Source of the DNA: Deltaproteobacteria bacterium
GTDB lineage: Bacteria > Myxococcota > XYA12-FULL-58-9
Direction of reading: 5' to 3'
DNA: 33,894 bases
NCBI GenBank assembly: GCA_016218825.1
Contig: JACRCV010000076.1
Coordinates: forward strand, 1-33,894
Shown here in pieces: positions 1-33,894 of the stretch. A program made the position numbers and the translations under genes. Every line of letters starts with the position of its first letter. Position 1 is the first letter of the stretch. Under the pieces are notes generated by a model. The model ran no database searches. It worked only from the letters and a program-made list of their open reading frames with translations, and was not told the DNA's origin.

Positions 1-30
1 CAACTCACCGACCATCGCACTCGCATTGCC

Positions 31-792: not shown

Positions 793-874
793 TCTTGTTC
801 GAGTCCTAGGTTAAGACACAGCTATTTTGACATTCCAAGTTCCACCAAATTGTCAAAGACCATAACGCACCGCG
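793..874 (-). promoter_or_regulatory. CRISPR leader with candidate promoter
   Basis: This 82-bp stretch between the cas2 stop and the leader-proximal repeat is clearly more AT-rich than its surroundings, as expected of a leader. Read on the minus strand it holds TTGACA (856-851) and, 18 bp later, TGTCAA (832-827). The two form a 6-bp inverted repeat. TTGACA is a good -35 box, but no convincing -10 follows at the right distance, so the promoter call is tentative. No clear IHF consensus was seen. Confidence 0.6.
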
Positions 875-1183
<309 letters not shown>

Positions 1184-2095: not shown

Positions 2096-2096
2096 G

Positions 2097-2834
2097 TCAC
2101 GCCCGTTGCAGAAGCATGAGCCCGCAACCGAAGGCCTTCTGCGGGCCAAAGCCGAGCGCGACCTTCGCCAGGAACAGCGCAGGGTCGCGGACCACGAGGA
2201 CGCCCTCGAAGTCCACGGTGCTGAAGCGGATCGGCGCCTCGCCCTTGCGATGCAGGCGGTGCTGACGATAGCCGTCCACGCGCAGCGCGGCTCGCTCGAC
2301 CTCCTCGACGAGGCCGTCTTCGCCGACGACTTCGGTCGGTCCACGCGCCAGATCGAAGCCGGCCTTGGCTGCTTGACGCGCGAGCCACCGCTCCCCCTCG
2401 CGTTGCAGGGCGAGCACCACGTCGAAGGGCTCTCCTGCTCCATGTTGCTTCCTCGCATCCATCACCACGTCGCAGCGCTTGCCCGGCGTGCCATCGGCGC
2501 CTGTCCCACGCTTCACCGTGGGGCTCGCCCGCAGGCTGAACCGCAGCCTGTCACCCGCGCAGAGCCTCGGTGCAAACGGCTTGGGGTCCTCCAAGTGCCA
2601 CAGCCCTGCACCGTCATCGCGCGGCGGCGACTTCGACAGCACGAAGAAACTAACGCGGCCGGGACCGCGACTGCCCCCTACGTCCTGACGAAACAGGAAG
2701 TCGCGGGTTTGCTCCGGCGCTCGGCTGAACAGACGCCACAGCGCCTGATGAGCGCCCTCCGGGGTCGCGACTTGGCGCCAGAACTCGGGGCGCGCCGCGG
2801 CGTCGGCGCGTAGCTCAATCCGACTCAGGAACAT
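2097..2834 (-). CDS. cas6e: CRISPR pre-crRNA endoribonuclease Cas6e (Cse3)
   Basis: A 245-residue Cas6e. It cuts pre-crRNA at the base of the repeat hairpin and stays bound to the crRNA 3' handle within Cascade. The N-terminus (MFLSRIELR) and a histidine at residue 29 in EGAHQALWRLF match the family's catalytic His region. The C-terminus carries the Gly-rich GFGPQKAFGCGLMLL segment typical of Cas6e. A DFEGVLVVRDP segment precedes it, as in other members. The ATG at 2834 lies inside the end of cas5e (20-bp overlap), suggesting translational coupling. Its presumed substrate, the CCCCAC/GTGGGG stem, is present in the array. Confidence 0.95.
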   Translation of the reverse strand: MFLSRIELRADAAARPEFWRQVATPEGAHQALWRLFSRAPEQTRDFLFRQDVGGSRGPGRVSFFVLSKSPPRDDGAGLWHLEDPKPFAPRLCAGDRLRFSLRASPTVKRGTGADGTPGKRCDVVMDARKQHGAGEPFDVVLALQREGERWLARQAAKAGFDLARGPTEVVGEDGLVEEVERAALRVDGYRQHRLHRKGEAPIRFSTVDFEGVLVVRDPALFLAKVALGFGPQKAFGCGLMLLQRA

Positions 2835-3612
2835 CGCTCGCCTCCTCGCTCGTGGTCTCGCTGAGCACGTGCTCGTCGCGGGTCAGGAACTGCCAACGGG
2901 TGCGGCTCAGCACCCGGTCGCGACGGACCTCCCCCCGCTCCGCCGTGAGCCCCGGCCACTCCCCCTCCCAGCGATACACGCGCTCACTCGACCCCCGCGC
3001 CAGCCGGTCGGCGCAATGAGCGTCGAGGCTGAAGCGGAGCTGCCGCAGCGCCGCGACCGGGCTGTCGGCTTCGACGAGCGCCGGCTCGAAGGGGAGAGCC
3101 AAAGGAGCCGCCTTCCTGCCGGCGTAGGGCGTAAAGACCGGCCGACGTAGGGCCTCGGCCAGTGACTCGACGGTCCACGGGCCATCCCCGTGCTTCAACC
3201 ACACGCAGACCGCGAAGATCGCGTCGGTGCGGTACTGGCGCTGGCTCAGTTGGGTGTCCAGTGCATGCGGCGTCCCGTCTTTGTCGAACGTCGCGCTCAG
3301 CTCCTCTCGGCGGGTGGCGATCGGCACGCCCTGGCGCTTGCGGAACGCCTTCCTCCGAGTCTCGTCCGGGGCCTGAGCCGTGTGGTAGTCGACGAGCAGC
3401 GCTCCGGGCGCGTCCGTGCGTGTGGCCACGCCGAGCGCGCGCTCGAGCTCGGCCTGCTCATCGGCCTGGTCCCTGCGAATCCCGAGACAGCCGGCGACGA
3501 GGCCCAGGATCATGGATCGAGTCGGCGCTGTGAGGCTCGGCCGGCGCTCTCCCACGGCAACGTCGCCGAAGGAAGCGAGCGGTGCATACAGGCGAAAACC
3601 AACGAAATGCAT
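2815..3612 (-). CDS. cas5e: Cascade subunit Cas5e (CasD)
   Basis: A 265-residue Cas5e, the RAMP protein that caps the 5' handle of the crRNA and contacts the large subunit. The N-terminus MHFVGFRLYAPLASFGDVAV, the PTRSMILGLVAGCLGIRR helix, the TQLSQRQYRTDAIF block and PVFTPYAGRKAAPLALP are all typical of the type I-E family. Its length is slightly above the E. coli protein because of an acidic tail (SEEASDVPESD). The ATG at 3612 is 3 bp from the cas7e stop, and the 3' end overlaps cas6e, so it sits in the middle of the operon. Confidence 0.95.
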   Translation of the reverse strand: MHFVGFRLYAPLASFGDVAVGERRPSLTAPTRSMILGLVAGCLGIRRDQADEQAELERALGVATRTDAPGALLVDYHTAQAPDETRRKAFRKRQGVPIATRREELSATFDKDGTPHALDTQLSQRQYRTDAIFAVCVWLKHGDGPWTVESLAEALRRPVFTPYAGRKAAPLALPFEPALVEADSPVAALRQLRFSLDAHCADRLARGSSERVYRWEGEWPGLTAERGEVRRDRVLSRTRWQFLTRDEHVLSETTSEEASDVPESD

Positions 3613-3615
3613 GGC

Positions 3616-4662
3616 TCAGGCCTCTGCCACGAAGCTGACGAGCTCGGCCAGCGTGCCCTGGTTCTTGGTCGTGTCGAAGTGACAGGACGCGGGGGCGCTG
3701 CCGTAGACCTTGTCGAAGCTCGCCTTGGTGTCGCCGAGCCGCTGGATGGCCTCGACCAGCATCGCGTCGCCTTTGACCGGCTCGAGGAACGCCACCGCCA
3801 GCGAGCGCGGCTGGAAGTCGCCCTTCTCCGCGAGCACGTAGCTCGCGAGAGAACGCGACGCGAAGCTGTTCTGCTTGCCGGTTGGCGCTACTGTCAGGCA
3901 GGCCTTGGTGAACGCCGCGACCGTCTTGTTCTTGAGCGCCTCGTCGTTGCCGAGGTTCTCGGCGAGCAGGGCGCGATCGATGCAGACATAGTGGTAGAGC
4001 ACCGCCGAAGCGAACTCCTGGGTTCCCACGTGGCCGGCGCCCGTATCCTCCTTCGCGTTCAGGTCGTCGACCGCCGTGAAGTAATCGTCCTCGATTACGA
4101 CCTTGTGCACCGACAGCGCGTGGGCTACCTGGGCGGCGGCTTCGACATTGAAGCCGGGCTTCGCGGCCAACATGCGACCGAACAGCGCGATGTCGGCGGC
4201 GCCGGCCGCGGTCGCCACGAGCGAAGCGAGCTCATCCTCGCTGGGCTCCCGCTTCTCTTTGCCAAGGCGAATCCCAAGCTCTTTGAGCGAAGCGAGCTCG
4301 CTCGGCGTCACATGGACCAGGGTCTCGGTCTGGCGCTGTGCCTCCTCGTCGCCTTTGGTCTTGAGCGTGCCGAAGACCGCGGCGACTTGCTTGGCAACGG
4401 TGCCTGCCTTCGCCGCGTCCATGCCCTTGACCAGCTCCGCGTGAACGACGTTGCCGAAGTCCTTGGTGCGCGTGCCGATGTGGCCCTTGAGGTCGGCGGT
4501 GAAGCCTTCGGACGTCCGCCATGCCCGCTTGAGGCTCTGGGAGGAGACCCGCAGACGCTGGGTGCCGCCGAACAACGCGGTCTTCGGGCGGCCGAGATCG
4601 TCGCGGTTGAGATTGGACGGCGCATAAACGGTCAAGAAGTGAAGCTGCAAGAAACGGGACAT
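3616..4662 (-). CDS. cas7e: Cascade backbone subunit Cas7e (CasC)
   Basis: A 348-residue Cas7e, the protein that polymerises along the crRNA to form the Cascade backbone (six copies in E. coli). Typical motifs are LHFLTVYAPSNLNRDDLGRPK, which binds RNA at the N-terminus, then FGGTQRLRVSSQSLKRAWR, ALFGRMLA and GAGHVGTQEFASAVLYHY. The ending FDKVYGSAPASCHFDTTKN...LVSFV is also family-like. The ATG at 4662 is preceded by a GAGAGG-like ribosome site. A 39-bp gap separates it from cse2, the only noticeable gap between Cascade genes here. Confidence 0.96.
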   Translation of the reverse strand: MSRFLQLHFLTVYAPSNLNRDDLGRPKTALFGGTQRLRVSSQSLKRAWRTSEGFTADLKGHIGTRTKDFGNVVHAELVKGMDAAKAGTVAKQVAAVFGTLKTKGDEEAQRQTETLVHVTPSELASLKELGIRLGKEKREPSEDELASLVATAAGAADIALFGRMLAAKPGFNVEAAAQVAHALSVHKVVIEDDYFTAVDDLNAKEDTGAGHVGTQEFASAVLYHYVCIDRALLAENLGNDEALKNKTVAAFTKACLTVAPTGKQNSFASRSLASYVLAEKGDFQPRSLAVAFLEPVKGDAMLVEAIQRLGDTKASFDKVYGSAPASCHFDTTKNQGTLAELVSFVAEA

Positions 4663-4701
4663 GGGTGCCTCTCGATCAGGGGTTAGGGAATCTGTTCGAT
4701 T

Positions 4702-5214
4702 TCACTCGCGGGCGTTCGCCGGCTCCGGTTGAGCCTCGTAGTAGTCGAGCGCCCACCGTTGTTTCGTCTTGTCGTTCCACCACCAGAGGTCGGTCGCCAG
4801 CCGGTCGACCGACGCCCTGCCGCCGAGTTGGCGCAGCACACGGACGAGCGCGACGAGCCGCTCGTCCCAATCAGTCGTGTTGCTGCGGAGGAGGTGACGG
4901 AAGCGCACGTCGCTGACGACCGCCTTGTCGCCCTGCGGCGCGGCCATCTGCTTGCCAAGGCTCCCCGCGTCCGGGTCGTCCTTGTCGACGTGCGCGAGCA
5001 CCGCGGCGATCAAGCCGAGCTTGTTCAGTTCAATCTCCGCTTGTGGGTTGCCTTTTCTGCGACGCAGCAGGTGAAACGGGGCGCAGAACGCGGCCTCGGC
5101 CACGGTTCCGCACCGTGCGAGCTCGGCTCTGCCGCCGCGGTTTTCCTGCAACTGTTTCCACCAGGATTGCCAAATGGACGGCTGTCGCGCGGACTCGGGG
5201 TCCGACATTGTCAT
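4702..5214 (-). CDS. cse2: Cascade small subunit Cse2 (CasB, Cas11e)
   Basis: A 170-residue Cse2, present as a dimer in Cascade, where it stabilises the R-loop. The region after the start (IWQSWWKQLQENRGGRAELARC) and the later RFRHLLRSNTTDWDERLVALVRVLRQL, then LATDLWWW, match the family's all-helical pattern. I placed the start at the ATG at 5214, whose ATGA overlaps the cse1 stop; a second in-frame ATG lies 6 bp downstream. The open frame upstream of 5214 runs inside cse1 and is not expected to be translated. The acidic-aromatic tail after WWW is slightly variable among relatives. Confidence 0.94.
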   Translation of the reverse strand: MTMSDPESARQPSIWQSWWKQLQENRGGRAELARCGTVAEAAFCAPFHLLRRRKGNPQAEIELNKLGLIAAVLAHVDKDDPDAGSLGKQMAAPQGDKAVVSDVRFRHLLRSNTTDWDERLVALVRVLRQLGGRASVDRLATDLWWWNDKTKQRWALDYYEAQPEPANARE

Positions 5215-6833
5215 GGCTTCGCCTCCTTCTTCTTGGACCTTCGTTTGGGGGTCGTCCCGGGCAACTCCGCCGGAGCCAAACCCACACACTTCAAGAGTGA
5301 CTTGTTGTCGGGTCTCGTGAAGCGAACCGCGCTCTGCCTGGCGCGCACTGCTCGTGCCAGGCCTGCGGGCCCCTCCGACACGTCCAAGGGGCACAGAGCA
5401 TCAAACAGGCGCACGGCCTCGCCGTGTAGGATGGACAGAAACCGGCGCTTCTCGTTGGCCCGGTCGTCCGCCGAGTCCTTTTCGATGGCGGCCGCCACTC
5501 CGCGCACCGCGGCGTGGAACGCGGATTCGGTCGCGGCCCAGAACGCCACGTCGACCCTGGCCTCGACCTCGCCGGACTGGTCGCCCGGTCGGTCTTTCCA
5601 AGCGGACTTCGTCTGTTGCAGGAGCGTCTTTCTGACCGCGTCGCTGGCCTCGACGAGCCCTGTCGCGTCCGCCCGCAATTGCTCGAGAACGCTGCGTGAG
5701 ACGTGAAGCAGTGGGACGTCGGCCTCCACGAACCGCAACGGCTTCATGTTGTCCATGGCGTAGCCACGCGCGGCGACCCTGTAGCAGGGTGCACAGCGCC
5801 CGCGCTCCTGTTGCATGAAGGAGTCGACGACCTTGGGCGGCAACAGGCGCTCGCTGCCGATGGTAAGCAATGGCCAATCCCGGTACGGCAGGCCGGCCCT
5901 GCTTCCCTTTTTCGGGTTCGGAGGCTCGCCCTCCTTCCCCACGGTGTATGGAGTCAGCGGGTGCCGGTATGGTCCGTCATAGCTCGTCCCGTCTGGCCTG
6001 CTTTGAAACGCTCGGACAACCGGCACGTCACGATCGCCGTAGATCGCACACGTGCCCTTCCGTTCGGGCTCGATCACCAACCGGAAACGCCGCGGTAGTG
6101 CCCAGTAGTGCTGCAGCGGATGGACATCGGGCGGAAACGTGCTGGGTTTGCCCTTCTCGCTTGTCCGGGTCTGCCCCATCCACGGGATTCGGTCTTCCAT
6201 CGCGGTCTTCTTCGGGTCGCCGGGCAGACTATCGAGGTCGAGCTGGAGCAGCACATTGCACCAGACCGTGCCCCAGAGGCTCTCGTCCTGAACCGTGACC
6301 GAGAGCGGCCCGCCGCCGCGTAGCGACGTGCACTGCCCTCGGCCTCCGCTCGGCGCGAAGGCCTGAAGGGTCAGAATCGCGGCGGCCGCCGCAGGGAGTC
6401 CCAACTCTTCGAAGCCGCCATCCTTTGCGAAGAGCGAGGTGTCGCCGGCCATGCCGCGATCGATGAGCAGGCCTTCGATGGGCTTCTCCTCGACCTTCTT
6501 GTCAGTATGAACGGTCAGGTCTTGCATGAACCTCGGCCCGTCCCCGTCGAGGAAGAAGGCATCCCGCTCCACGAGCATCTTCTTCCGCAGGAGCTCCGGC
6601 GCGCAGCCCTGCTTGTACACCTGCTCCCACTCGTCCGAATTCTTGGGTGTGAAGACTGTCTGAACGAGGCCAATCAGGAACTCGAGCAGCGCCGCGTCGA
6701 AGTCAGGCCGCGGGCTCTCGACGCGCAGCGGCGCGTCACCTGTCTCTGCCACTTGCCAGGGCGCGATCCGCTCGACCTTCCCGGACGCCCGGCGCACCGG
6801 GATCCACGGCTCTTCGATGAGATTGTAGGCCAT
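5211..6833 (-). CDS. cse1: Cascade large subunit Cse1 (CasA, Cas8e)
   Basis: A 540-residue Cas8e, which recognises the PAM and recruits Cas3. The N-terminal MAYNLIEEPWIPVRR corresponds to the family's conserved NLIxxxWIPV opening. Also present are PDFDAALLEFLIGLVQTVF and a FMQDL segment, as in characterised Cse1 proteins. It is about 40 residues longer than the E. coli protein. I chose the ATG at 6833, 1 bp after the cas3 stop, because the protein starts exactly at the conserved motif; upstream in-frame sequence lies within cas3. It overlaps cse2 by 4 bp. The C-terminus is basic (KRRSKKKEAKP). Confidence 0.95.
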   Translation of the reverse strand: MAYNLIEEPWIPVRRASGKVERIAPWQVAETGDAPLRVESPRPDFDAALLEFLIGLVQTVFTPKNSDEWEQVYKQGCAPELLRKKMLVERDAFFLDGDGPRFMQDLTVHTDKKVEEKPIEGLLIDRGMAGDTSLFAKDGGFEELGLPAAAAAILTLQAFAPSGGRGQCTSLRGGGPLSVTVQDESLWGTVWCNVLLQLDLDSLPGDPKKTAMEDRIPWMGQTRTSEKGKPSTFPPDVHPLQHYWALPRRFRLVIEPERKGTCAIYGDRDVPVVRAFQSRPDGTSYDGPYRHPLTPYTVGKEGEPPNPKKGSRAGLPYRDWPLLTIGSERLLPPKVVDSFMQQERGRCAPCYRVAARGYAMDNMKPLRFVEADVPLLHVSRSVLEQLRADATGLVEASDAVRKTLLQQTKSAWKDRPGDQSGEVEARVDVAFWAATESAFHAAVRGVAAAIEKDSADDRANEKRRFLSILHGEAVRLFDALCPLDVSEGPAGLARAVRARQSAVRFTRPDNKSLLKCVGLAPAELPGTTPKRRSKKKEAKP

Positions 6834-6834
6834 G

Positions 6835-9636
6835 CTACAAGCCTTTCTCCAACCGGAAGTCGAGACCCCGGCCGGGTGTGAACACGATCGTGACCGGCGC
6901 TTGCCGATCGTCGCCACGGGCAGCGACCCCGCGCCCGTGCCACTCCTCGTGAACCGCATGCATCTCGATAGGTGCCACGTGCGCGGGCGGCTCTGCGCCA
7001 AGCTGCGCCAGCCGGGCTCGCAATGGGTCCTCCTCATCGGGTCTGCCCGCGCAGGCCAAGGCGGTCCGTACCGAGACCTCCCCCAGGCGCCAGCGCACTC
7101 CCTGAGAGACCGAGGTCGCCGCCGACCACGGGCAGACCTCACCTGCGATCGAGCGGACGAGCCGAAGCGTCACGGTCGGTTCCCCGAGCCGCGTGGGCAC
7201 GAACTCGTCGTCCGCCCACGTGGCGCCCGTGCGCAGGTAGCCCTGATCGAGATTGATCTTGTTGTGCTCAGCCATCGCCTTGTTGCGCAGCGCCTCCCCC
7301 TCGGCGTTGAGCTCGCGCCGTTCGAGGGCCAACACCTCCGGGACCGAGTCGCCGTCCTCCGGCCCGTACACCGCTTCGACGAGCTCCCGGGCCTTCGCCG
7401 GCAGCTCGAGCCTTCCCAGGTCATGGAGCACTCGCTGCGTGCGCCAAAGGACGGACGGACGGCCATAGACGGCGACCGTGCCTTTGAAGGTGCCGCCGGG
7501 CCAGCCTTCTTCGGGGCGCTCGTTCCAAGCTGGGCCCAGCACGTGGAGGACGGCGTCGCCACGTTCCCCGCGCGCGTGGCGATGGAGGCGTCCAGCCCTC
7601 TGGATCAACCGATCGATGGGCGCCAAGTCGGAGACCATCTCGTCGAAGTCGAGGTCCAGGGACTGCTCGAGCACTTGCGTCGCGACGACGATCCGTCCCT
7701 CGCGGCCGATGGCGTCGCTCGTCGGGCCGAACCGGCCCACGATGTCGCGCTCGATCTCCAATCGGTCGCCCATCGGGAACCGCGCGTGGAAGAGTTGCAC
7801 GCGATCACGCCCGAGTTCTCGAGCCAGCCGATCGTAGGCTTCGAGCGCGTCGCGAACGGTGTTTCGGATCCAGGCCACCGCTTTCCCGGCCCTCGCTTGG
7901 TCGACACACCAACCGGCAACCGCGTCGATGGCGTCGAAGAAGCTGACGCCCAGAATCCGCTCGCATCCGCTACATGCATCGACCGGGACCACGTCGACCC
8001 CCGACCGGTCGGCGCGCACCAGGGCAGGATAGGCGTCGCCGTCGATCGCCGCGTCCCGGGCTCCGAGGCCCTGCCGGAATGCCTGCACGAGCTGGCGCCG
8101 ACCCGCCATGGGCAACGTCGCGCTGAGGAGCACCGCAGAGCCGCCGCAGGCCGCTTGCAGTCGGAGCAGCTCCATCAAGACGCCGTTCATGTAAACGTCG
8201 CAGGCATGGACCTCGTCGACGACGAGGACATGACGGTGAAGCCCGAGGAGGCGCAGGCTGTTGTGCTTGGCCTGGAGGGCTCCCACCAAGGCCTGGTCAA
8301 CCGTGCCAACACCCGCGTCAGCGAGCAGCGCCTTCTTCCGGCTGTCACCGAGCCAGCTACGCGCCAGCGCGGAGGCGGTGGGCTCTTCGGGGCCGTAGGT
8401 CGAGCCAGCCTGCCGCTCGAGCGTTTCCGCGCCGATACCGGTCGTTCTCCCTGAGAGCTTCGGGCCGGAGTGAGCGAGAACGAAGGACGCCGGCGGGGTC
8501 GGCTCGAACAAGCGGTCGACCAGCGGCTCGACGCGGGAGCACATCGCATTGGCTGTCGCCATGGTGGGCAACGCGAAGTAGAAGCCGTCCGCCTTGCCGG
8601 CATCGAAGAGCCGCGCGACCAACGTCAGCGCCGCCTCCGTCTTGCCGCTGCCGGTGAGGTCTTCCAAGAGGAAGAGCTGCGGACCCTCGCCCAGTCTCAC
8701 GGAGGAGGCCTCGACCTGCAGCGGACTCGGCCGCTCGATCTTCTCGAACAGGCGCCCGAATCCTCCGAATGAGCGCACCTGCGGCGCCACGAGGCCGGCG
8801 GTCCTCACCGCGTCGTGGGCATGTTTCAAGGCGGTGCTCCAATAGCTTCGGAGGTCCCGCACTGCGGGGTCGAACGGAAACCAATCTCGGTTGGACCCCA
8901 CCCAGTCGCAAAGCGTGGCGTACCCAGCTAGCCACCACGAAGATCTCCTCCATGAATCCTCGCTGATTGGCGCCGCAATCGGGAGGCGAGACACGACGGC
9001 AGGCGCGAGGACCGCGCGCGCCTCGGCAACGAACTCGACCGCGTCCAACCAGGCCCCGTTCGCGCGTCGCAAGAAGAAATGGTCGTTGAGGCTTGCCGCG
9101 GTGCTGCCAGTCATCTCGGGCGGTCTGCCGTGGTGCCCGGTCACTGCCGCGAGCCACGACCACAACGCCTTCTTGACGAGAAGCGCATCCGGCGTGGTCC
9201 CGTCAGCGTCGGTGACGTCGACTCGAACGATCGGGGCATGCTTCTCGCTCCTCGGATCGGCGAGCTCGCTCCATAGCATGTATCCGAGGCTGTCGTGGCG
9301 CGGATGATTGGCGATGCAGGCCGGCGCCCGACCCAGTCGGGCGGCGATGTCGCGTCGCTGATACTGGAAGCCGTCACCGAACTTTCCGAGGTCGTGGAGC
9401 GCGAGTAGGAAAGCAATGACGGATTCCAGGTCGCTACGTTTCATCTCAGCGACGCGCGCGAAGGCATCCAACCACCCGGGTCGCGCCTCGGCGAGGGCGA
9501 CGCCGACCGCAGCCACATCGAGGCAGTGGCAGGCGAGCGGGTGATAGAGGCCCGCGTCGTCGGCCTTGCCCCAATACCTGAAGAAGCCGGGCGCCGTTCC
9601 GACGGCCTCGTGTTCTATGGCTCTCAGATCGCTCAA
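6835..9636 (-). CDS. cas3: CRISPR-associated helicase-nuclease Cas3, type I-E
   Basis: A 933-residue Cas3, the enzyme that degrades DNA after Cascade binds a target. The N-terminal HD nuclease domain has HPLACHCLD, the HD pair H81-D82 in ALHDLGKF, HPRHDS and GHHGRPPE. The SF2 helicase core has Walker A LTGSGKTE (residues 327-334), the DEVH box (474-477), LLSATLP, and QRAGRLHRH as motif VI. Order and length are those of a complete type I Cas3. The start is a TTG at 9636 that overlaps the upstream exonuclease stop (TTGA), with a GAAGGG-like ribosome site. The HD-proximal FFRYWGK matches the family N-terminus, so an upstream start is not needed. Confidence 0.96.
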   Translation of the reverse strand: MSDLRAIEHEAVGTAPGFFRYWGKADDAGLYHPLACHCLDVAAVGVALAEARPGWLDAFARVAEMKRSDLESVIAFLLALHDLGKFGDGFQYQRRDIAARLGRAPACIANHPRHDSLGYMLWSELADPRSEKHAPIVRVDVTDADGTTPDALLVKKALWSWLAAVTGHHGRPPEMTGSTAASLNDHFFLRRANGAWLDAVEFVAEARAVLAPAVVSRLPIAAPISEDSWRRSSWWLAGYATLCDWVGSNRDWFPFDPAVRDLRSYWSTALKHAHDAVRTAGLVAPQVRSFGGFGRLFEKIERPSPLQVEASSVRLGEGPQLFLLEDLTGSGKTEAALTLVARLFDAGKADGFYFALPTMATANAMCSRVEPLVDRLFEPTPPASFVLAHSGPKLSGRTTGIGAETLERQAGSTYGPEEPTASALARSWLGDSRKKALLADAGVGTVDQALVGALQAKHNSLRLLGLHRHVLVVDEVHACDVYMNGVLMELLRLQAACGGSAVLLSATLPMAGRRQLVQAFRQGLGARDAAIDGDAYPALVRADRSGVDVVPVDACSGCERILGVSFFDAIDAVAGWCVDQARAGKAVAWIRNTVRDALEAYDRLARELGRDRVQLFHARFPMGDRLEIERDIVGRFGPTSDAIGREGRIVVATQVLEQSLDLDFDEMVSDLAPIDRLIQRAGRLHRHARGERGDAVLHVLGPAWNERPEEGWPGGTFKGTVAVYGRPSVLWRTQRVLHDLGRLELPAKARELVEAVYGPEDGDSVPEVLALERRELNAEGEALRNKAMAEHNKINLDQGYLRTGATWADDEFVPTRLGEPTVTLRLVRSIAGEVCPWSAATSVSQGVRWRLGEVSVRTALACAGRPDEEDPLRARLAQLGAEPPAHVAPIEMHAVHEEWHGRGVAARGDDRQAPVTIVFTPGRGLDFRLEKGL

Positions 9637-10316
9637 GTTCGCGCCCTTCGGCCGGTCGGTTTCACCCGTGCGCGCGGTGAGCCGGCAGCCCGCATCAGGT
9701 CAGCGGGGCTCATCTCGTGTCGCAGCGCAGCTGTGACGATGCCGGCGCAAGCCTCGGCGTCGGAAGCGGCGTCATGGTGGCTCAACGTCAATCCGAGGTG
9801 ACGGCACACATCCGGCAATCTCGTTGGACGTACGCCCCACACCACGCGAGCGAGCTTCATCGTACAGACGAACTCGAGCCTGGGTGCCTTGAGCCTCGCC
9901 ACTGCGCAGCAAGCGTGCAGTACTGAGCGGTCGAACGCCGCGCTGTGTGCTGCGACGAAATCCGCACCGTCGAGTAGCCACCGAACTTGGCGCCACACCG
10001 TGCCGAAGGTCGGTTCGCCGGACACCTGCGGCCACGAGATGCCGTGCACGTACGTGAAGACGAAGTCGCGCCGTGGCGGTCGGATGAGGCGATGCTCGCG
10101 AGCGACAACCGTCGAGCCCTCGACGCGAACCAGACCGATCGCGCAGGCGCTGTCTCGCCCTTGGTCCGCGGTTTCAAAATCCATTGCGACAAAACACGGC
10201 TTGACGGCGGCGTGAGCCGGCTCCCGTCTGCAAGGAGCGGCACCACGCGTTTGCCCGCCGGTCGCGGGCCCCCGTTCAATCGCATGCGCAAGAAGACCCA
10301 CCCCACCTCCCAACAC
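9633..10316 (-). CDS. DnaQ-like 3'-5' exonuclease (DEDDh), first gene of the cas operon
   Basis: A DnaQ/epsilon-type exonuclease of up to 227 residues. Motif I is AMDFETAD (D and E ligands), motif II AHSAAFDRSVL and motif III HHDAASDAEAC (DEDDh type). The IGLVRVEG, HGISWPQV and CTMKLAR segments place it with bacterial stand-alone DnaQ-like exonucleases rather than polymerase subunits. The start is uncertain. The GTG at 10316 gives a 43-residue extension; GTG at 10301 follows a GGAGG; the ATG at 10184 would cut into motif I. The stop overlaps the cas3 start by 4 bp, so the two are probably translationally coupled. In some type I-E systems such a domain is fused to Cas2, and host DnaQ-like nucleases trim prespacers in E. 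coli. A role in spacer trimming is inferred here. Confidence 0.88.
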   Translation of the reverse strand: MLGGGVGLLAHAIERGPATGGQTRGAAPCRREPAHAAVKPCFVAMDFETADQGRDSACAIGLVRVEGSTVVAREHRLIRPPRRDFVFTYVHGISWPQVSGEPTFGTVWRQVRWLLDGADFVAAHSAAFDRSVLHACCAVARLKAPRLEFVCTMKLARVVWGVRPTRLPDVCRHLGLTLSHHDAASDAEACAGIVTAALRHEMSPADLMRAAGSPRARVKPTGRRART

Positions 10317-15232: not shown

Positions 15233-15270
15233 TCTTCTCGCGGCGGGCGGTCCCCCGTGAACGGTGACGC
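15233..15270 (-). repeat. Dispersed palindromic element, copy 1 (truncated)
   Basis: Read on the minus strand, this matches the left end of the element family found also near 19.0, 24.8, 27.6 and 33.8 kb: CACCGTTCACGGGGGACC, then GCCCGCCGCGAGAAGA. Only about 38 bp are present. It lies between the divergent kinase-like gene and the envelope-protein gene. Confidence 0.75.
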
Positions 15271-24758: not shown

Positions 24759-24868
24759 GTTACCGTTCACGGGCGACCGCCCGCCGCGAGAAGATCCTCG
24801 GCGAAAACAAGGCGTTGTGGCGCGGCTCTGCGTCCCCCGTGTATTACGAGAGCCATCGTGATGACCCC
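24759..24868 (+). repeat. Dispersed palindromic element, copy 3
   Basis: About 110 bp. It reads GTTACCGTTCACGGG, then CGCCCGCCGCGAGAAGATCC, GGCGAAAACAAGGCGTTGTG and GCGTCCCCCGTG, then ACGAGAGCCATCGTGATGAC up to 24868. It therefore carries both the module seen in copies 1, 4 and 5 and the right end seen in copy 2. It lies between the hypothetical gene (23755-24753) and the downstream end of the subtilase gene. Confidence 0.85.
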
Positions 24869-24974: not shown

Positions 24975-27395
24975 CTAGCGGCGGATCCGACGTCGCCGGC
25001 CGATGCCGGCCAGGGCCAGGAGCGCGCCGATGAGGGACGGCGGCGTCGCGGTGCAGGACCAGCGGCTCTTGCCGTTGCATTCGGGGTCGCAGGCGCAATC
25101 TTTGTCGCAGGAGTAGGTTTCGTCACAGGCGCAGACGCCGGCGTTGGGATCGGTCGCGGCGCTGGGCGGCGGATCGGTCTTGGGCGGGGTGTCGGTGCCG
25201 CACAGGCCCCACTCGTTGCAGACGTCGCCGTTGCAGTCGTCCGCCGACTCGCACTGCGCCCAGCAGGAGCCGGTGCCGTCGGCCTCCGGCCAGCAAGAGT
25301 AGCCGGGGCGGCAGTCGCTCCTGCGCTCGCACTGCGGCAGGCAGGCGTCGAAGCGGCCGAGCGGCACACAGTGGCTGCCGGCGGCGCAGTCGGCGGCGGC
25401 GTAGCAGTCGATCACGCAGTAGCCGTCCGGCATCCAGTCGATGCACCAGCCGTTCTTCGCGCACTGGACGTCGGCGGTGCAGGCGGCGCCCGGGCCGTTT
25501 GGGCCGTCGTGGACGCACTCGCCGGACTTCGGGTCGCAGGTCTCGCCGGGGTTGCAGCCGTTGACGGTGCACGACGGCAGGCAGACCGGCGGCTGGCCGT
25601 CGGGGGACAGGCAGTCGTAGCCGGCGCGGCAGTCGGCGATCGAGGCGCAGCTCGCCAGGCAGTAGCCGCCGTTGCCGGTCGAGAAGCAGGTGGCGTTGCC
25701 GGGGCAGGCGTCGGTGCAGGTGGTGGAGCAGTAGCCGCCGGTGAAGCCCATGGTCTCGCCGAAGCACAGGCCGCCGATGCCGCACTGGAAGTCCTGGGTG
25801 CAGATGACGCCGACCGGGGTGACGGTGGGGGCGCACGACGGATCGGCGCTGTCCGAAAGCCAGTCGCAGTCGTTGTCGGCGCCGTCGTCGCAGAGCTCGG
25901 GGACCGGCTGGCAGACGTCGCCGCCCGCGGCTTGCTGCACCGCCCGCATCGCGTTGACCCGGCCGTAGCCGTAGTGCGCCTCGAAGCCGTGGGCGTCGTA
26001 GGTCACGCTGCCGACCTTGTCGGCGGTCTCGAACAGGATCGACTGCACCTGGGCGCGGGAGAGCGACAGGTTGACGCTGTAGACGAGCGCGGCGACGCCG
26101 GCGGCCACCGGGGTCGCGGCGCTGGTGCCGCTGAACTGCATGAAGTAGTCGCCGGCGGCGTAGCCGTTTTGGCCGCGGATGTCGGTCGACACCGCGGCGG
26201 CGGGCGCGGTCAGGTCGAGCTCGGCGCCCCAGTTGGAGTAGTCCTCCCGCAGGTCGAAGTAGTTGCTGGCGCCGATGCCGAGCACCAGCGGGTGGCTCGC
26301 GAGCTCGTAGCTCTCGTTCATGCGGCCGTCGTTGCCGGCGGCGAACAGGATGACGCTGCCGGCGCCGTCGCGGCCGGTCTCGGCGACGGTGTGGATCGCG
26401 AGGTCGAGGTCGGAGGGCACGCCGGCGGCGCCCTCGGGGCCCCAGGAGTTCGACAGCACCTGGGCGCCGTGGTCCGAGGCCCAGTAGAACGCGTCGCTGT
26501 CGATGCCCATGCGGCTGAAGCCGCTCTCGCTCATGATCCTGAGCGGCATCAACGAGCAATCGGGGCAGACGCCGGCGATGCCGATCTCGTTGTCGCCGGT
26601 GGCGGCGGCGATGCCGGCGGTGTTGGTGCCGTGGGCGTCGGTAGGGTCGGGGGTCGGGTCGTCGTCGTTGTCGATCAGGTCTCTCGGGCTCACGATCTTG
26701 CCGGCGAGGTCGGGGTGCAACATGTCGGTGCCGGAGTCGATGATCGCGATCGCGACGCCGGCAGCACCACGGATGAGCTCGAAGGCGCCCTGCGAGCCGA
26801 TGTTCTCGTGGTGCCATTGATCGGCGAACAGCGGGTCATTGGGGATGTAGAGCGGCCGCAAGCGGATGATGAAGTCGGGGTGCGCGAAGCGGGCGGCGCG
26901 CGATTCTTGGAGCCGCAGCGCCGCGGCGACGGTGGCGCGCGGCGAGGCGCAGAGCACCTCGTAGAGGCCGAGCTCGGGGCGCAGGACGCGGGCGGCGACG
27001 CCGCCGGCGGCCTTGACCCGGCGGTTGACCTCGGCGGCGGAGAGGGTCTTGTCGAACTGGGCGCGGATCTTCTCGTCGGCGATGTAGACCGAGGTCTCGC
27101 CCTGCGGGTGGTAGACCGGGAGCAGGGTCGCGGCGGCGAGGGCGCGGGCGTCAGAGCGCAACGCCGCCGGGTCGGTGGCGTGCCCGACCAGCCAGAGGTC
27201 GCCGAACATGTGGGTGAAGGTCACGTCGGGGTGCTTGGCCTCGAGGCGGGAGAGCAGGGCGCGGCTCGAGACTCGGAAGGCGACGGCGTTGGTGTCTTCT
27301 TCGAGGGTGACCTTGCCGTGGGTCGAATAGTAGGCGGGCGGAAGGTAGGACGCGGAGAGCATCGCAGCGAGCAACAACATCATCGGGAGCTCCAT
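24975..27395 (-). CDS. Secreted subtilisin-like serine protease with Cys-rich C-terminus and MYXO-CTERM-like tail
   Basis: An 806-residue secreted S8 protease. A signal peptide (MELPMMLLLAAMLSA) is followed by an inhibitor-like propeptide up to about residue 190. The catalytic domain has D220 in AIIDSGTD, H255 in DAHGTNTAG, the oxyanion N355 in FAAGND and S425 in FSGTSAATPVAAG. After the domain, CQPVPELCDDGADNDCDW...C is a MopE-type metal-binding motif (residues 495-521). Cys-rich EGF-like units and a Pro-rich linker follow. The C-terminus has a Cys, a hydrophobic span (LIGALLALAGIG) and an Arg cluster, as in MYXO-CTERM sorting signals. It is probably surface-attached or secreted. The ATG at 27395 is the only start giving the signal peptide. 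Confidence 0.95.
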   Translation of the reverse strand: MELPMMLLLAAMLSASYLPPAYYSTHGKVTLEEDTNAVAFRVSSRALLSRLEAKHPDVTFTHMFGDLWLVGHATDPAALRSDARALAAATLLPVYHPQGETSVYIADEKIRAQFDKTLSAAEVNRRVKAAGGVAARVLRPELGLYEVLCASPRATVAAALRLQESRAARFAHPDFIIRLRPLYIPNDPLFADQWHHENIGSQGAFELIRGAAGVAIAIIDSGTDMLHPDLAGKIVSPRDLIDNDDDPTPDPTDAHGTNTAGIAAATGDNEIGIAGVCPDCSLMPLRIMSESGFSRMGIDSDAFYWASDHGAQVLSNSWGPEGAAGVPSDLDLAIHTVAETGRDGAGSVILFAAGNDGRMNESYELASHPLVLGIGASNYFDLREDYSNWGAELDLTAPAAAVSTDIRGQNGYAAGDYFMQFSGTSAATPVAAGVAALVYSVNLSLSRAQVQSILFETADKVGSVTYDAHGFEAHYGYGRVNAMRAVQQAAGGDVCQPVPELCDDGADNDCDWLSDSADPSCAPTVTPVGVICTQDFQCGIGGLCFGETMGFTGGYCSTTCTDACPGNATCFSTGNGGYCLASCASIADCRAGYDCLSPDGQPPVCLPSCTVNGCNPGETCDPKSGECVHDGPNGPGAACTADVQCAKNGWCIDWMPDGYCVIDCYAAADCAAGSHCVPLGRFDACLPQCERRSDCRPGYSCWPEADGTGSCWAQCESADDCNGDVCNEWGLCGTDTPPKTDPPPSAATDPNAGVCACDETYSCDKDCACDPECNGKSRWSCTATPPSLIGALLALAGIGRRRRIRR

Positions 27396-27767
27396 CTACC
27401 AGCGCGCGCGGCGCTTCGAACAACCTATTGCCGTGCCGCTTCTGGCTTCGCGGCGGTCAACGAGTGGGCGGGCGCCGATGTGCAACGTCGGTGCCAAGGC
27501 CGGTCGGATGCGGCTTTGCCGGGTGTCGGCCAACACCCTGTGATCCGCGCCACAACGCCTTGTTTTCGGCGAGGTTCTCGCGGCGGGCGGTCCCCCGTGA
27601 ACGGTAACAAGGTGGTATGGGTGCGGGCTCCGGCGCTCGCGTGGGGCGGGGGTTTGCAGATCTGCGAGCCCGCGGCGGTGCGGGATTCGCGTTCGTGCGA
27701 ATGGTGCTGAAACGCTGGCTTTCGAGTGGCAATCCGAGGTGAACAGCGACTTCGGGCACATCGGCGA
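27396..27767. other. Intergenic region containing repeat copy 4
   Basis: A 372-bp interval between the subtilase start and the regulator stop. I see no convincing gene. It holds repeat copy 4 (27544-27608) and, at 27507-27523, GGATGCGGCTTTGCCGG. That matches GGATCCGGCTTTGCCGG, the minus-strand reading of copy 5 at 33857-33873, at 16 of 17 positions, so a longer degenerate element may be present. A clear subtilase promoter was not found. Confidence 0.6.
27544..27608 (-). repeat. Dispersed palindromic element, copy 4
   Basis: On the minus strand it reads GTTACCGTTCACGGGGGACC, then GCCCGCCGCGAGAACCTCGC, CGAAAACAAGGCGTTGTGGC and GCGGA. It matches the left module of copies 3 and 5 with a 3-bp deletion (AGAAGATCC becomes AGAACC). 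The right half is lost or diverged. Confidence 0.85.
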
Positions 27768-29098
<1,331 letters not shown>

Positions 29099-29102
<4 letters not shown>

Positions 29103-31234
29103 GACATGACCTCCTTCTCGGCGCCGAGCGCGGCCACCCCCGGCAGCCGCACCACGAACACCGTGCCCTCGTCGCTCGAGGCCTCGAGCTGCAGGCGCCC
29201 GGCGAGCTCGCCCTCGACGATGGCGCGGCTGACGAACAACCCGAGCCCGGTGCCGCGCTTCGGCCCTTTGGTGGTGAAGAAGGGCTCGAACAGCCGCGAC
29301 TGCAAGGCCTGCGGGATGCCGCCGCCGCTGTCCGTGACCCGTACGACCACCGCGCCGCGCTCGGCCGCGGTCTCGAAGCCGAGCTCGCCGCCGTCCGGCA
29401 TCGCGTCGAGCGCGTTGATCCCCAGGTTCAACAGCACCTGCACCACGCGGTCCTCTTTGGCGCGGACCCCGGGGAGGTCGGGGGCGAGCTGTTTGCGGAT
29501 CTGAACCCGCCGCGCCCGCGGGTCGTGGGACAAGAGGCGCACCACGTCGGTGACCACGTCGTTCACCGACACCCGCGCCAGCTCGTCGCGCCGCCTTCTG
29601 GTGAAGTCGACCAGGTCGCGCAACAGCGCGCTCATCCGCACCACCTCTTTCTCGACGACGTCGAGGGTCTGGCGGATGCGCTGCGGATCGGTCACCTCGC
29701 CGGCGAGCTTGAGCTGGGATTGAATCGCGGCGAGCGGGTTGCCGATCTCGTGCGCCACCCCGGCGGCGAGCAGGCCGAAGGCCGCCATGCGCTCGTGATG
29801 GACCAAGGTCGCCTGCCCTTGCTTCTCGGCGGTGATGACGCGCGCGATCTCGACCACCGACTCGATGCGTCCGGCGGCGCGTGACACCGGGTAGGTCTCG
29901 ACCTGCAAGATCTCGGGGCCGTGCGCGCTCCGGCGCGGCCGCTCGACGGTCATCGGCTTGCCGCTCGCCAGGGTCTCGAGGATCGGATGGTCGGGTGACA
30001 ATGGCGCCTGCTCTTCCACCGCGGCGTCGTAGCGCCGGCCGACGAGATCGGCGCCGTAGGCGGTGAGGGCGGCGCGGTTGGCCTTCGAGATCTGGCCGTC
30101 TTGCCCCACGACCACGACCCGCTGGTCGATGGAGTCGAGCAACAGGTTGGTGAAGTCCTGGCTCTGCTGCAGCTCGCGGGTGCGCGCCGCGATGCGCTCC
30201 TCGAGCCGGCCGTACGAGTCGACGAGCGCGACGCTCATCCGATTGAACGCGGTCGCGAGCTCGACGACCTCGGCCGGTCCGCTCTGCGGCACGCTCTCGC
30301 CCAGCGAGCCGGCGGCGACCCGGGTCGCCGCCGCCGCCACCCGTCGCAGGTGACGCGCCAGGCGCGCGGCGGTGAGCACCATCGCCACGGTCAAGAGCAC
30401 CGCGAGCAGCGCGCCGAAGGTCACCGCCTGCCACTTGAGGCGCTCGAGGCCCGCGAGCGCCGCGGTGAGCGGCACCTCGACGAGCACGCCCCAGCCGCCG
30501 ATCCCCGCCGGCGCGTACGCCGCGACCGCTTCGGTGCCCGAGGGGAGCGCGTACTCGGCCATGAAGCCGCTGGTCCAGTCGCGATCGTCGGCGTCGCCGA
30601 GCGTCCTCGCCGAGCGCGTCGGCTCGAGCTCGTCGGCCGAGCTCCAGATCACCTGGCGCCGCGCGTCCACGAGGTACATGACGCCGAAGGGCGCGAGCTC
30701 GGTCTGCATCGCGATCAGCGGGTGGTGGCGCTCGAACGGGAAGCTCACGCACAGGCGGGCGGCGCCGTCGGCGTCGCGCAGCGCCGGCACCGAGACCACC
30801 ATCTCCGGCTCGGTGTCGTTCATCAGCACGCCGACCGGGCCGGGCGCCTCGGACACCGCCGCGGCGCAAAGGGCGTGTGGCAGCACATCGGCAGCCGTGC
30901 GGCCGCGGTCGACGAGGGCGCGCGACCGGCCCCCGGTGTCGACGAGCTCCCACAGGGTCGCGGTGGAGTCCGCGCCCGGGATGGTCGCGAGGTCGTCGGG
31001 CCCGTCGAGGGCGTGGGCGACCGCCTGGGCTTCGCGGAGCTTGTCGTTGATCGAGCGGCGCACGTCGGCGGCCGCCATCCCCGCGACGTGGTGCACGTCG
31101 CGCAGCACCGCCTCGGTCCAGAACTGCCGCGAGCGGGCATAGCCCCACAGGTTCGAGATCACGAGCGGCACGAACGAGAACAAGAGCAAGAGCGCCAACA
31201 GCTGGCGCGCCAGTGTCGAGGTGGGGCGACTCAA
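29099..31234 (-). CDS. Membrane sensor histidine kinase, partner of the NtrC-type regulator
   Basis: A 711-residue NtrB-like sensor kinase. Transmembrane span 1 is at residues 9-27 (LARQLLALLLLFSFVPLVI), followed by a periplasmic sensor domain of about 230 residues, and span 2 near 268-292 (LLAVLLTVAMVL). A HAMP segment (RLARHLRRVAAAATRVAAGS) and a PAS domain follow. The phospho-accepting His is about H495 in GVAHEIGNPLAAI. The ATPase domain has LGINALDAMPDGG, VTDSGGGIP and GTGLGLFVSR. The start is uncertain: TTG at 31234 places span 1 at the N-terminus, and earlier in-frame codons precede it. It overlaps the regulator. The ligand is unknown. Confidence 0.92.
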
Positions 31235-31383
31235 GGCCTCACTATGACAACCGAATAGGGCGGGTGCAACCTCGGCTGGTGAGGGGTAGACACGTTTATC
31301 CGAGGCGTCGCCGACGTCCAGGACAGCGCGTTGGTCGCGGGCCGTCACCGAACGAGGGGGGGTCGAGGCCTCGGACAAACGTG

Positions 31384-31399
31384 GGCGCCTCACGGCGCC
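31384..31399 (-). terminator. Hairpin just after the CC-peptide gene
   Basis: GGCGCC-TCAC-GGCGCC forms a perfect 6-bp stem 4 bp downstream of the peptide stop at 31404. On the minus strand the stem is preceded by TTTT and followed by CACGTTTGT, so it is a partial intrinsic terminator or an RNA-stabilising hairpin. It could limit read-through from the peptide gene into the kinase. Confidence 0.5.
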
Positions 31400-31403
31400 A
31401 AAA

Positions 31404-31499
31404 TCACTTGCAGCAGGTGATCTTGCAGCAAGTCGTGTCCGGGACGTTCACCGGCTTCTCGACCGGCGTCGCCACGGGCTTCGAAAACAGTTTCTTCAT
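31404..31499 (-). CDS. 31-residue CC-motif peptide, sigma-54-controlled
   Basis: A short gene encoding MKKLFSKPVATPVEKPVN, then VPDTTCCKITCCK. The core has four Cys in two CC pairs, in a repeated TCCK arrangement with codons TGCTGCAAG twice. It has no transmembrane span. The ATG at 31499 is preceded by AAGGAGGTGATT, a near-perfect Shine-Dalgarno. A sigma-54 promoter lies 43-60 bp upstream and a hairpin follows the stop. Charged leader, Pro-rich middle and Cys-rich end would fit a RiPP precursor, a metal-binding peptide, a redox sensor or a secreted signal; I cannot choose. No modifying enzyme is visible nearby. The gene is just upstream of the kinase-regulator pair. Confidence 0.7.
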   Translation of the reverse strand: MKKLFSKPVATPVEKPVNVPDTTCCKITCCK

Positions 31500-31541
31500 A
31501 ATCACCTCCTTGAATTCTTTCTCCCCACCGCCGGGCCTCGT

Positions 31542-31559
31542 TAGCAAGGTCCGTTCCAA
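31542..31559 (-). promoter_or_regulatory. Sigma-54 (-24/-12) promoter of the CC-peptide gene
   Basis: On the minus strand TTGGAACGGACCTTGCTA has GG and GC separated by exactly 10 bases. It matches the YTGGCAC-N5-TTGCW consensus with one mismatch in the -24 block (GGAAC for GGCAC). The start of transcription would lie near 31533, leaving a short leader before the strong ribosome site at 31503-31514. An NtrC-type activator gene is encoded in the same gene cluster. Confidence 0.75.
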
Positions 31560-31596
31560 TCGCCGGACGGGATGAGGCCTCGCGCCTGCGGGTCTG

Positions 31597-31638
31597 GTCA
31601 ACGCCTCGATAACAGGGGGGGAAATGCGTTGGGTTGAC
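31597..31638. promoter_or_regulatory. Inverted-repeat candidate enhancer site
   Basis: GTCAACGC (31597-31604) faces GCGTTG (31626-31631), which is followed by GGTTGAC (31632-31638), about 40-80 bp upstream of the sigma-54 promoter. NtrC-type activators bind such inverted repeats upstream of their promoters. The assignment rests on symmetry and position only. Confidence 0.35.
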
Positions 31639-31724
31639 GGCTAGGCAGCAGGGCGACCCGCGGCGGCGGGGGGGGGTGGGTTCGCAGGGTCGCGAACGGG
31701 GGCTCATCAGGCGCGCCAGCGGGC

Positions 31725-33236
31725 CTACGGGCAGCCGCCGGTATTCGCGCCACCCCAGCAGAAGTTGCAGCCGGTCGCGGTGCAGCCTGGCGTCGCACAG
31801 CCGCCGGTGCCGCAATCATAGGCGTCCGGCGCACCGCAGCCGCAGTCGCAGGTAAGGTCCACCCAGTAGCTCTCGGGGCAGCTCCACGCCGCGGGCAGGC
31901 AGCTGATGGTGTTGGCCCCGTCGTGGCAGATCTCGCAGGCGTCGCTGACGCAGCCCGGGGTCGTGCAGCTGCCGGCGAGACATTCGTGGTCGACGGCGCC
32001 GCAGCCGCAGTCGCAGTAGTAGTCGTCCCACGCGGCCTGGCCGCAGGTGTAGGTAGCCGGCATGCAGCTGTTGGTGCTCGCGCCGTCGTGGCAAACGTCG
32101 CAGACGTTGGCGAGGCAGCCCGGGGTCGTGCAACCGCCGGTAGCGCAGCCCCTGTCGGCGGCGCCGCAGCCGCAGTCGCAGTAGTAGTCGTCCCACGCGG
32201 CCTGGCCGCAGGTATAGGCGGGCGGCACACAGCTGTTGGTGCTCGCGCCGTCGTGGCAGACGTCGCAGCTGCTGGCGAGGCAGCCCGGGGTCGTGCAGCT
32301 GCCGCCATAGCAGCCTTTGTCGTCGACGCCACACCCGCAGTCGCAGGAGTAGTCCTGCCAGGCGTCCTCGCCGCAGGTGTAGGCGACGGGTGCGCAGACG
32401 GCAATGGCGCCGCCGGTCGTGTGACAGAGGTCGCAACCGTCGTCCCTGCAACCCGGGGTTGTGCAGCCGCCGATGCAGCTCGGGTCGACGATGCCACAGC
32501 CGCAATCACAGCTGAAGTCTTGGAACTCGGCCTGGGAGCAGAGCCAGCCGCCTGGGGTGCAGGCGATCACACTCGGGCCGTCGTGGCAGACGTCGCAGAC
32601 GTTGCTCACGCAGCCTGGGGTCGTGCAGCTCCCGAGGTAACACTCATAGTCCTCGACGCCGCAGCCGCAGTCGCACGCGCCGTCGCCCCACAACCCACTG
32701 CCGCAGGTCCAGCCGCTCGGCCGAGGCGGTGGCGGACAGCTCGCGATGGCGGCGCCATTGGCGTCGTAGCAGTACTGACAGCCCGCGGCGCCGCAGCCGG
32801 CCGCGGCGCAGCCGTCGGTGCAGTCGGGATCGATGCGGCCGCAGCCACAGTCACAGCCGTCGTCGGTCCCGTAGTAGCTGGCGCTGCACCGCCACACCGG
32901 GTTGCTCGCCGCGTCGCCGCCATCGTTGTCACCCCCGGCGGCCGGATCGCCGGCGCCATCGTGGTCGCCCCCGGCGACCGGATCGCCGGCGCCATTGTGG
33001 TCGCTCTCGGAAACCGGGTCGGCGCCGCCGTTGTGGTCGCTCCCGGAAACCGGGTCGGCGCCGCCGTTGTGGTCGCTCCCGGAAACCGGGTCGGCGCTGC
33101 CGTTGTGGTCGCCGCCGGCGGCCGGATCGCCGCCGCCCCCCGAGCCGGAGTATCTCCCGCCCTCGTCCGTAGGGCTGCCGCAGCCGGCAACCGCTACCAG
33201 CACGACCGCGACGCACGGCGACACAGACTTGAACAT
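31725..33236 (-). CDS. Large lipoprotein with seven 10-Cys repeats
   Basis: A 503-residue surface lipoprotein. The signal peptide ends in the lipobox VAGC (Cys 19). Residues 37-105 contain about six Asp/Gly-rich 12-residue repeats (such as SGSDHNGGADPV), with 36-bp DNA periodicity, probably a flexible stalk. Residues 115-503 hold seven units of about 55 residues with 10 Cys each, of the form (W/Y)xC...CDCGCG..D..C...C.TPGC...C..CHDG....C. That is about 70 Cys in all. Units 5 and 6 are the most alike (YTCGQAAWDDYYCDCGCGA). Such arrays could form disulphides or bind metals. No family was recognised. The ATG at 33236 is preceded by GGGGGG. It has a good promoter at 33259. Confidence 0.85.
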   Translation of the reverse strand: MFKSVSPCVAVVLVAVAGCGSPTDEGGRYSGSGGGGDPAAGGDHNGSADPVSGSDHNGGADPVSGSDHNGGADPVSESDHNGAGDPVAGGDHDGAGDPAAGGDNDGGDAASNPVWRCSASYYGTDDGCDCGCGRIDPDCTDGCAAAGCGAAGCQYCYDANGAAIASCPPPPRPSGWTCGSGLWGDGACDCGCGVEDYECYLGSCTTPGCVSNVCDVCHDGPSVIACTPGGWLCSQAEFQDFSCDCGCGIVDPSCIGGCTTPGCRDDGCDLCHTTGGAIAVCAPVAYTCGEDAWQDYSCDCGCGVDDKGCYGGSCTTPGCLASSCDVCHDGASTNSCVPPAYTCGQAAWDDYYCDCGCGAADRGCATGGCTTPGCLANVCDVCHDGASTNSCMPATYTCGQAAWDDYYCDCGCGAVDHECLAGSCTTPGCVSDACEICHDGANTISCLPAAWSCPESYWVDLTCDCGCGAPDAYDCGTGGCATPGCTATGCNFCWGGANTGGCP

Positions 33237-33753: not shown

Positions 33754-33894
33754 GTTACCGTTCACGGGGGACCGCCCGCCGCGAGAAGATCCTCGGCGAA
33801 AACCAGGCGTTGTGGCGCGGCTCTGCGTCCCCCGTGAGCCCCACGCTCAGGACCGGCAAAGCCGGATCCTTCGCGTCTACGGCCAGTTACGAGA
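33754..33894 (+). repeat. Dispersed palindromic element, copy 5 (runs off the window)
   Basis: The most complete copy. It begins GTTACCGTTCACGGGGGACC. TCACGGGGGAC at 33762-33772 and GTCCCCCGTGA at 33827-33837 are perfect 11-bp inverted ends of a 76-bp module. Then follow CGGCAAAGCCGGATCC and CGCGTCTACGGCCAGTTACG, the start of the right module seen in copies 2 and 3. The window ends inside that module (ACGAGA). Confidence 0.88.

Follow-up and report, generated by a model that had tools for sequence, protein, structure and literature searches.

The window, that is, the whole stretch of 33,894 nucleotides that was analysed, belongs to a Deltaproteobacteria bacterium of the Myxococcota (GenBank assembly GCA_016218825.1, contig JACRCV010000076.1). 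It harbored a gene of only 31 codons, whose product ended in two CC pairs, followed by a sensor kinase gene and then by an NtrC-type regulator gene; this order, proposed in a first-pass annotation, was confirmed by domain matches. The features were the following:

24975-27395, minus strand: subtilase-family (S8) protease (Pfam Peptidase_S8, 1e-47), a putative regulon member downstream of the second promoter
27481-27497, minus strand: second sigma-54 promoter, TTGGCACCGACGTTGCA, ranked second in the window (18.2 bits)
27686-27701, unstranded: second TTCGC-N6-GCGAA palindrome, 204 bp upstream of the second sigma-54 promoter
27768-29117, minus strand: NtrC-type sigma-54-dependent response regulator, start approximate, overlapping the kinase stop
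29099-31258, minus strand: membrane sensor histidine kinase (HAMP, PAS, HisKA, HATPase), start approximate
31384-31399, minus strand: hairpin GGCGCC-GTGA-GGCGCC, 3′ of the peptide stop, weak and without U-run
31404-31499, minus strand: peptide gene, MKKLFSKPVATPVEKPVNVPDTTCCKITCCK, 31 codons and TGA, read as an open reading frame with a paralog at 74% identity
31500-31511, minus strand: Shine-Dalgarno sequence, AAGGAGGTGATT, immediately 5′ of the ATG
31543-31559, minus strand: sigma-54 (-24/-12) promoter, TTGGAACGGACCTTGCT, best-scoring site of the window (19.0 bits)
31681-31696, unstranded: TTCGC-N6-GCGAA, proposed enhancer and candidate regulator-binding palindrome, one of two in the window

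Directly upstream of the peptide gene (31725-33236, minus strand) was placed a gene encoding a secreted lipoprotein-like Cys-rich protein with CDCGCG...CTTPGC...CHDGA repeat units and no Pfam match. At the other end of the window (1-10316), a CRISPR array with the repeats 'TTCATCCCCACG...GTGGGGAACGG' was followed on the minus strand by genes reading as a type I-E set (Cas1-, Cas6e/5e/7e-, Cse- and Cas3-like) and by an exonuclease-like ORF.

Judged by sequence comparison, the peptide gene is genuine and conserved. Its Shine-Dalgarno sequence was near-perfect, as had been claimed, and the CC...CC ending recurred both in the same genome and in relatives, where the first-pass annotation had asked whether it would be conserved. 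The paralog, MKKLFPKPVTTPVEAPRPVPESTCCKISCCK, was found on another contig of the window genome (G000:C68:7148-7240) with 74% identity and an E value of 8.5e-10. The two copies differed by seven synonymous and eight non-synonymous codons, corresponding, by the Nei-Gojobori method, to a pN of 0.17 and a pS of 0.48 (dN ~0.19, dS ~0.77, dN/dS ~0.25). Two more copies, MNSVLNHKPKNVQVQQPTPAPQGTGCCKISCCK and MKILKRPLSNVTVEPAQPTPAGGKTGCCKISCCK, were carried by a distant member of the Myxococcota (G016), both of whose peptide contigs matched JACRCW01, 'Deltaproteobacteria bacterium NC_groundwater_1656_Pr3_B-0.1um_70_40'. These two, the window copy and the C68 copy were the only four matches to a CCKI[ST]CC DNA pattern among 195 Myxococcota genomes, in which the reversed control pattern gave none. 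The strict CCKI[ST]CCK pattern retrieved 86 stretches from 84,980 genomes, in which the two G016 copies were genuine and the remaining stretches that were examined resembled chance frames. No significant match was obtained for the peptides in Pfam or NCBIfam.

The -24/-12 site with exact GG-N10-GC spacing noted earlier was confirmed upstream of this gene. It reads TTGGAACG-GACC-TTGCT, its GC lying 44 nt upstream of the ATG, and ranked first among 67,756 window positions with an approximate sigma-54 matrix built on the published consensus YTGGCACG-N4-TTGCW. With the same matrix, no site of at least 18 bits was observed in 379,174 positions of the other fetched loci. The second-best site of the window was placed past the kinase/regulator pair and 5′ of the subtilase gene. 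The hairpin described right after the stop does exist; however, the terminator role was not sustained, since the structure was no stronger than those of shuffled sequences (z -0.86) and was not followed by a U-run. A dispersed repeat starting CACGGGGGACCGCCCGCCGCG was also observed in four copies (0.05 expected) at 15239-15259, 24768-24788, 27579-27599 and 33763-33783, one of which, upstream of the subtilase gene, separates the palindrome from the sigma-54 promoter.

An enhancer palindrome had also been suggested upstream of the peptide gene. The candidate lying within 31384-31638 was weak (82%) and overlapped the promoter, but a better one, the perfect TTCGC-N6-GCGAA at 31681-31696, was found just outside this interval. 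Exactly two such palindromes occur in the window versus 0.12 expected, a number reached by none of 100 shuffles, with one 137 bp ahead of the best sigma-54 site and the other 204 bp ahead of the second best. This arrangement was also encountered in G002, a genome of the same family, which was the only one of the 12 genomes tested with a full-length kinase ortholog (60% identity, on the same contig as a peptide gene and its partner enzyme gene, described below) and whose regulator was 83% identical to that of the window. The orthologous two-component system of G002 lies between two near-perfect sigma-54 sites (21 bits). The second of them precedes an operon encoding a c-type-haem protein, plastocyanin-like and cupredoxin proteins, a polyferredoxin, a COX2-cytochrome c and a lipoprotein with a HAHILK motif. 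Contig C12 of the window genome carried the same copper-protein operon, with matched genes 61-85% identical to those of G002 and a sigma-54 site of its own. In G002, the peptide and its partner enzyme gene were likewise preceded by a further sigma-54 site, itself preceded by TTCGC-N6-GCGAA. Considering six sigma-54 promoter upstream regions from the window, G002 and C12, the TCGC-N6-GCGA dyad was present in five and the full TTCGC-N6-GCGAA in three, versus maxima of three and two, respectively, for the best shared dyads of each type in 400 shuffle sets.

The regulator is predicted to bind TTCGC-N6-GCGAA, and the earlier proposal that the neighbouring NtrC-type protein could activate the peptide promoter gained support from the palindrome shared with the G002 promoters, the 83%-identical regulator and the presence of rpoN in the window genome. 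The -24/-12 promoter, the NtrC-type activator, the upstream palindrome and rpoN are together the elements expected under putative sigma-54/NtrC control; the activator motif of the window regulator reads GAFTSA, not GAFTGA. A kinase/regulator pair is also encoded on contig C146 of G016, but it was rejected as orthologous to the window pair, with only 38% (catalytic part) and 42% identity. Since the G016 regulator is that divergent and the G016 peptide promoter lacks the palindrome, the similar layout may be convergent.

What defines the peptide family is that its genes usually lie beside those of one subfamily of GMC (glucose-methanol-choline) flavin oxidoreductases; a tie to copper is also predicted. 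At its start, a GMC-type FAD oxidoreductase frame (L024:7240-8745) overlaps the C68 paralog; the encoded enzyme matched Pfam PF05199 and PF00732 above cut-off, as expected of a GMC oxidoreductase. In G016, the peptide gene on contig C163 is followed by a DMT transporter gene and then by a gene for a GMC enzyme 49% identical to that of C68. A profile of these two enzymes retrieved more GMC members from the 195 Myxococcota genomes, with short Cys genes alongside in G008, G002 and others, such as MKLLQTKKLKNVKVEKKSRKGEVRCCGVIRCCGVIRCCGVIRQ in G008 and MKLLQKVRLKNIKVMTALNKSLKVRHCQIRCCK in G002. In one family, genes of only 12 codons, MKKK[IL]K[VI]RHCG[IL], lie by the GMC genes (for example, MKKKIKVRHCGI); a phylum-wide search with this pattern gave matches in only six genomes, all of them no more than ~110 bp from a GMC gene, and the control gave none. 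Three GMC paralogs occur in G838, each with its own HCG-repeat precursor on the opposite strand. Next to the GMC enzymes of G019 and G016:C43, no recognisable precursor was found. With the GMC profile, no match was obtained in 398 Pseudomonadota genomes, in a search run without positive control, and only distant GMC proteins were encoded on plasmids, with at most 28% identity among the matches listed.

The precursors range from 12 to 51 residues, and their Cys cores comprise CCKI[ST]CCK, RCCGVI in three repeats, HCG repeats and the 12-residue form. An N-[VI]-x-V segment near the N-terminus is common to most of the longer members, the window copy having no more than a degenerate form of it, and the Cys cores that follow it vary. 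Modified ribosomal peptides are built in this way, with a common N-terminal segment joined to a variable Cys part. The family has both a short precursor with conserved leader and variable core and a candidate modifying enzyme encoded nearby or in trans; the window copy has such an enzyme in trans only, on C68. Neither a RiPP recognition domain nor a transporter was constant across the family loci, the DMT transporter being present only at G016:C163. Regarding the enzymes, the catalytic His of the HE-x-G motif was invariant in all 12 compared, and the second active-site position was His in nine and Pro in those of G000, G016 and G019, the three nearest the window. GMC enzymes mostly act on alcohols, taking hydride from an OH-bearing carbon. 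The GMC enzyme HMFO also oxidises primary thiols (PMC7414962), and oxidation of Cys thiols is therefore chemically plausible; the enzyme paired with the peptides may possibly convert them to thiocarbonyl-type ligands.

Two further observations concern these loci. In G101 (L133, 4106-5575, minus strand), the GMC frame is extended in frame at its N-terminus by a segment starting MKGLLHRKLSGLRGRTRCAWRVDL, a precursor-like fusion that may be an upstream start only. Ahead of their 12-codon genes, L133, L137, L138, L140 and L141 encode a protein of ~180-196 aa with Cys motifs. In L133 its gene follows one for a sigma-70-region-2 protein, and in L141 a similar ORF takes that place; the two may form a separate regulator pair in that family.

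The link to copper is suggested by neighbouring genes. A CusA-type RND pump was encoded within ~6 kb of the GMC gene in eight of 16 loci, a raw count in which several loci come from one family and are not independent. Further neighbours included CusB/HMBD, YHS and cupredoxin proteins, NosL on both sides of the GMC gene in G019, a BIM1-like protein and a thioredoxin in G008, a COX2-cytochrome c in G002, and HMA and DUF305 proteins in G838. The window itself has no clear copper gene. The HAHILK lipoprotein was found in three of 195 genomes, G000, G002 and G016, which are also the three that encode a CCK-ending peptide. Members of this lipoprotein family (L026, 10098-10994; L136, 9907-10818; L200, 9379-10290) had no Pfam match and were placed each time in a cupredoxin/cytochrome locus.

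Taken together, the gene, its family, the enzyme pairing, the promoter, the shared palindrome and the copper neighbourhoods are well supported at the sequence level, and we favour, with a confidence slightly better than even, the reading that the window peptide is an orphan RiPP-like precursor, induced through NtrC and sigma-54, whose Cys core is modified in trans by the GMC enzyme to give a copper ligand. In this mechanism, the membrane kinase would sense an envelope or copper/respiratory signal and phosphorylate the NtrC-type regulator, which would bind the palindrome at 31681-31696 and activate sigma-54 polymerase at 31543-31559. The resulting transcript would include the peptide gene and probably, via read-through, those of the kinase and regulator, and the same regulator may also activate the subtilase promoter and the C12 copper-protein electron-transfer operon. 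The Cys core CCKITCCK would then be oxidatively modified by the GMC enzyme whose gene adjoins the C68 paralog, and the modified peptide, acting as a thiol-based copper ligand, would buffer or deliver copper. Both the modification by the GMC enzyme and the copper binding of the product are predictions, and since the window copy is not linked to a GMC gene, action in trans is an assumption. The locus had been regarded as a self-contained circuit, a description that no longer fits, because the enzyme and the co-regulated operon lie on other contigs. From the original list of signal, metal buffer, redox sensor or RiPP, the last and the metal buffer are now favoured; the GMC partner and the copper neighbourhood had not been foreseen. 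In G001, from the genus of the window genome and 86% complete, no peptide, GMC enzyme, full-length kinase ortholog or HAHILK lipoprotein was found, and the whole module therefore looks accessory.

Other explanations were weighed against this one. The peptide could be an unmodified metallothionein-like chelator binding copper directly, with the GMC enzyme acting elsewhere in copper or redox metabolism. The CC-x3-CC arrangement alone can chelate Cu(I) by established thiol chemistry, the copper-gene neighbours would fit, and two peptide copies have no adjoining enzyme gene. However, the tight association with one GMC subfamily recurs, G838 alone contributing three independent pairs, and the N-terminal segment is conserved as in a recognition leader; both make this somewhat unlikely, and single-Cys cores (RHCGI) would be poor chelators unless modified. 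Alternatively, the product could be a modified signal or antimicrobial peptide that has no relation to copper, is processed by the subtilase and is sensed by the kinase; this would agree with the RiPP-like architecture, the co-regulated protease and the kinase gene adjoining the peptide gene. This is regarded as distinctly improbable, considering that copper neighbours recur, that no conserved exporter is present at the family loci and that the subtilase was not seen at the other ones.

It was also considered that the peptide is a regulatory leader, a nascent-chain copper sensor or attenuator like CruR/CutF, whose translation would control the gene that follows it, for the kinase in the window or for the GMC enzyme at C68. 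Copper-sensing uORFs are known (PMC9426467), and the window resembles them in having a small Cys ORF at the head of a copper-related operon, ahead of a hairpin and a downstream gene; in addition, a hairpin-like repeat separates the 12-residue ORFs from the GMC gene behind them. CruR/CutF uORFs are exported DUF2946 products with CXXC and RAPP motifs, encoded on the same strand upstream of the regulated gene (PMC9426467, PMC9973294), whereas the peptides described here had CC pairs, no RAPP motif and no Pfam match, DUF2946 included, and the window hairpin was not significant. A sensor of this kind is disfavoured, and we consider it improbable, because the G016:C146 copy stands alone with its own strong terminator and no downstream gene on its strand, and all three G838 precursors are divergent from the enzyme gene. 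Finally, a chance ORF might lie beside a genuine sigma-54 promoter of the kinase operon, since the G002 kinase has such a promoter with no intervening peptide; given the 74%-identical paralog with excess synonymous change, the CCKI[ST]CCK core conserved in another family and the near-perfect Shine-Dalgarno sequence, conservation refutes this for practical purposes and its probability is very small.

Several known systems resemble parts of the module. As in ZraSR-ZraP, a sigma-54-dependent two-component system adjoins a small metal-related target, and the window kinase and regulator matched the ZraS and ZraR models with scores below their cut-offs; ZraP, however, is periplasmic and larger than the Cys peptide of 31 residues that is the target here. 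Mycofactocin (MftA/MftG) similarly joins a short ribosomal precursor to a GMC-family enzyme in one gene set, and MftG models were the nearest NCBIfam matches of the partner enzyme; however, the scores (55 and 68 bits) remained far below the cut-off of 387, no radical SAM gene was noted at the family loci, and the peptide core presumably lacks the mycofactocin end. Methanobactins are also copper-tied ribosomal peptides with a short leader and a Cys core, but no MbnB/MbnC was noted at the family loci, and we take the CCKI[ST]CCK and HCG cores not to be methanobactin cores. The bufferins are copper-chelating RiPPs modified by MNIO enzymes, for which many precursor genes are unlinked to the enzyme gene (PMC12452194). 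Small Cys precursors, an oxidative modifying enzyme, a copper-stress context and unlinked precursors, as in the window, would be common to both. The bufferin enzyme, in contrast, is a multinuclear iron MNIO (DUF692), and the bufferin precursors have a known domain; here the partner is a GMC flavoprotein and the peptide had no Pfam or NCBIfam match; the bufferin survey contains no mention of GMC enzymes (PMC12452194).

In the open-access literature searched, no system joining GMC enzymes with RiPPs, copper or precursor peptides was found. A copper-linked modified peptide is of a known kind, and the enzyme family and its precursors appear to be new. We tentatively propose, at a little short of even confidence, a new class in Myxococcota in which ribosomal copper-binding peptides would be made from Cys precursors of 12-51 residues by a GMC flavoenzyme, with precursors in trans and one of them under a dedicated NtrC/sigma-54 copper-respiration circuit. 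If this is true, GMC flavoproteins would join the peptide-modifying enzyme families, the 12-codon gene would be among the shortest precursor genes proposed, and these bacteria would handle copper by a route that relies on neither methanobactin nor MNIO chemistry. Selection acts on genes this small, and annotation may miss them.
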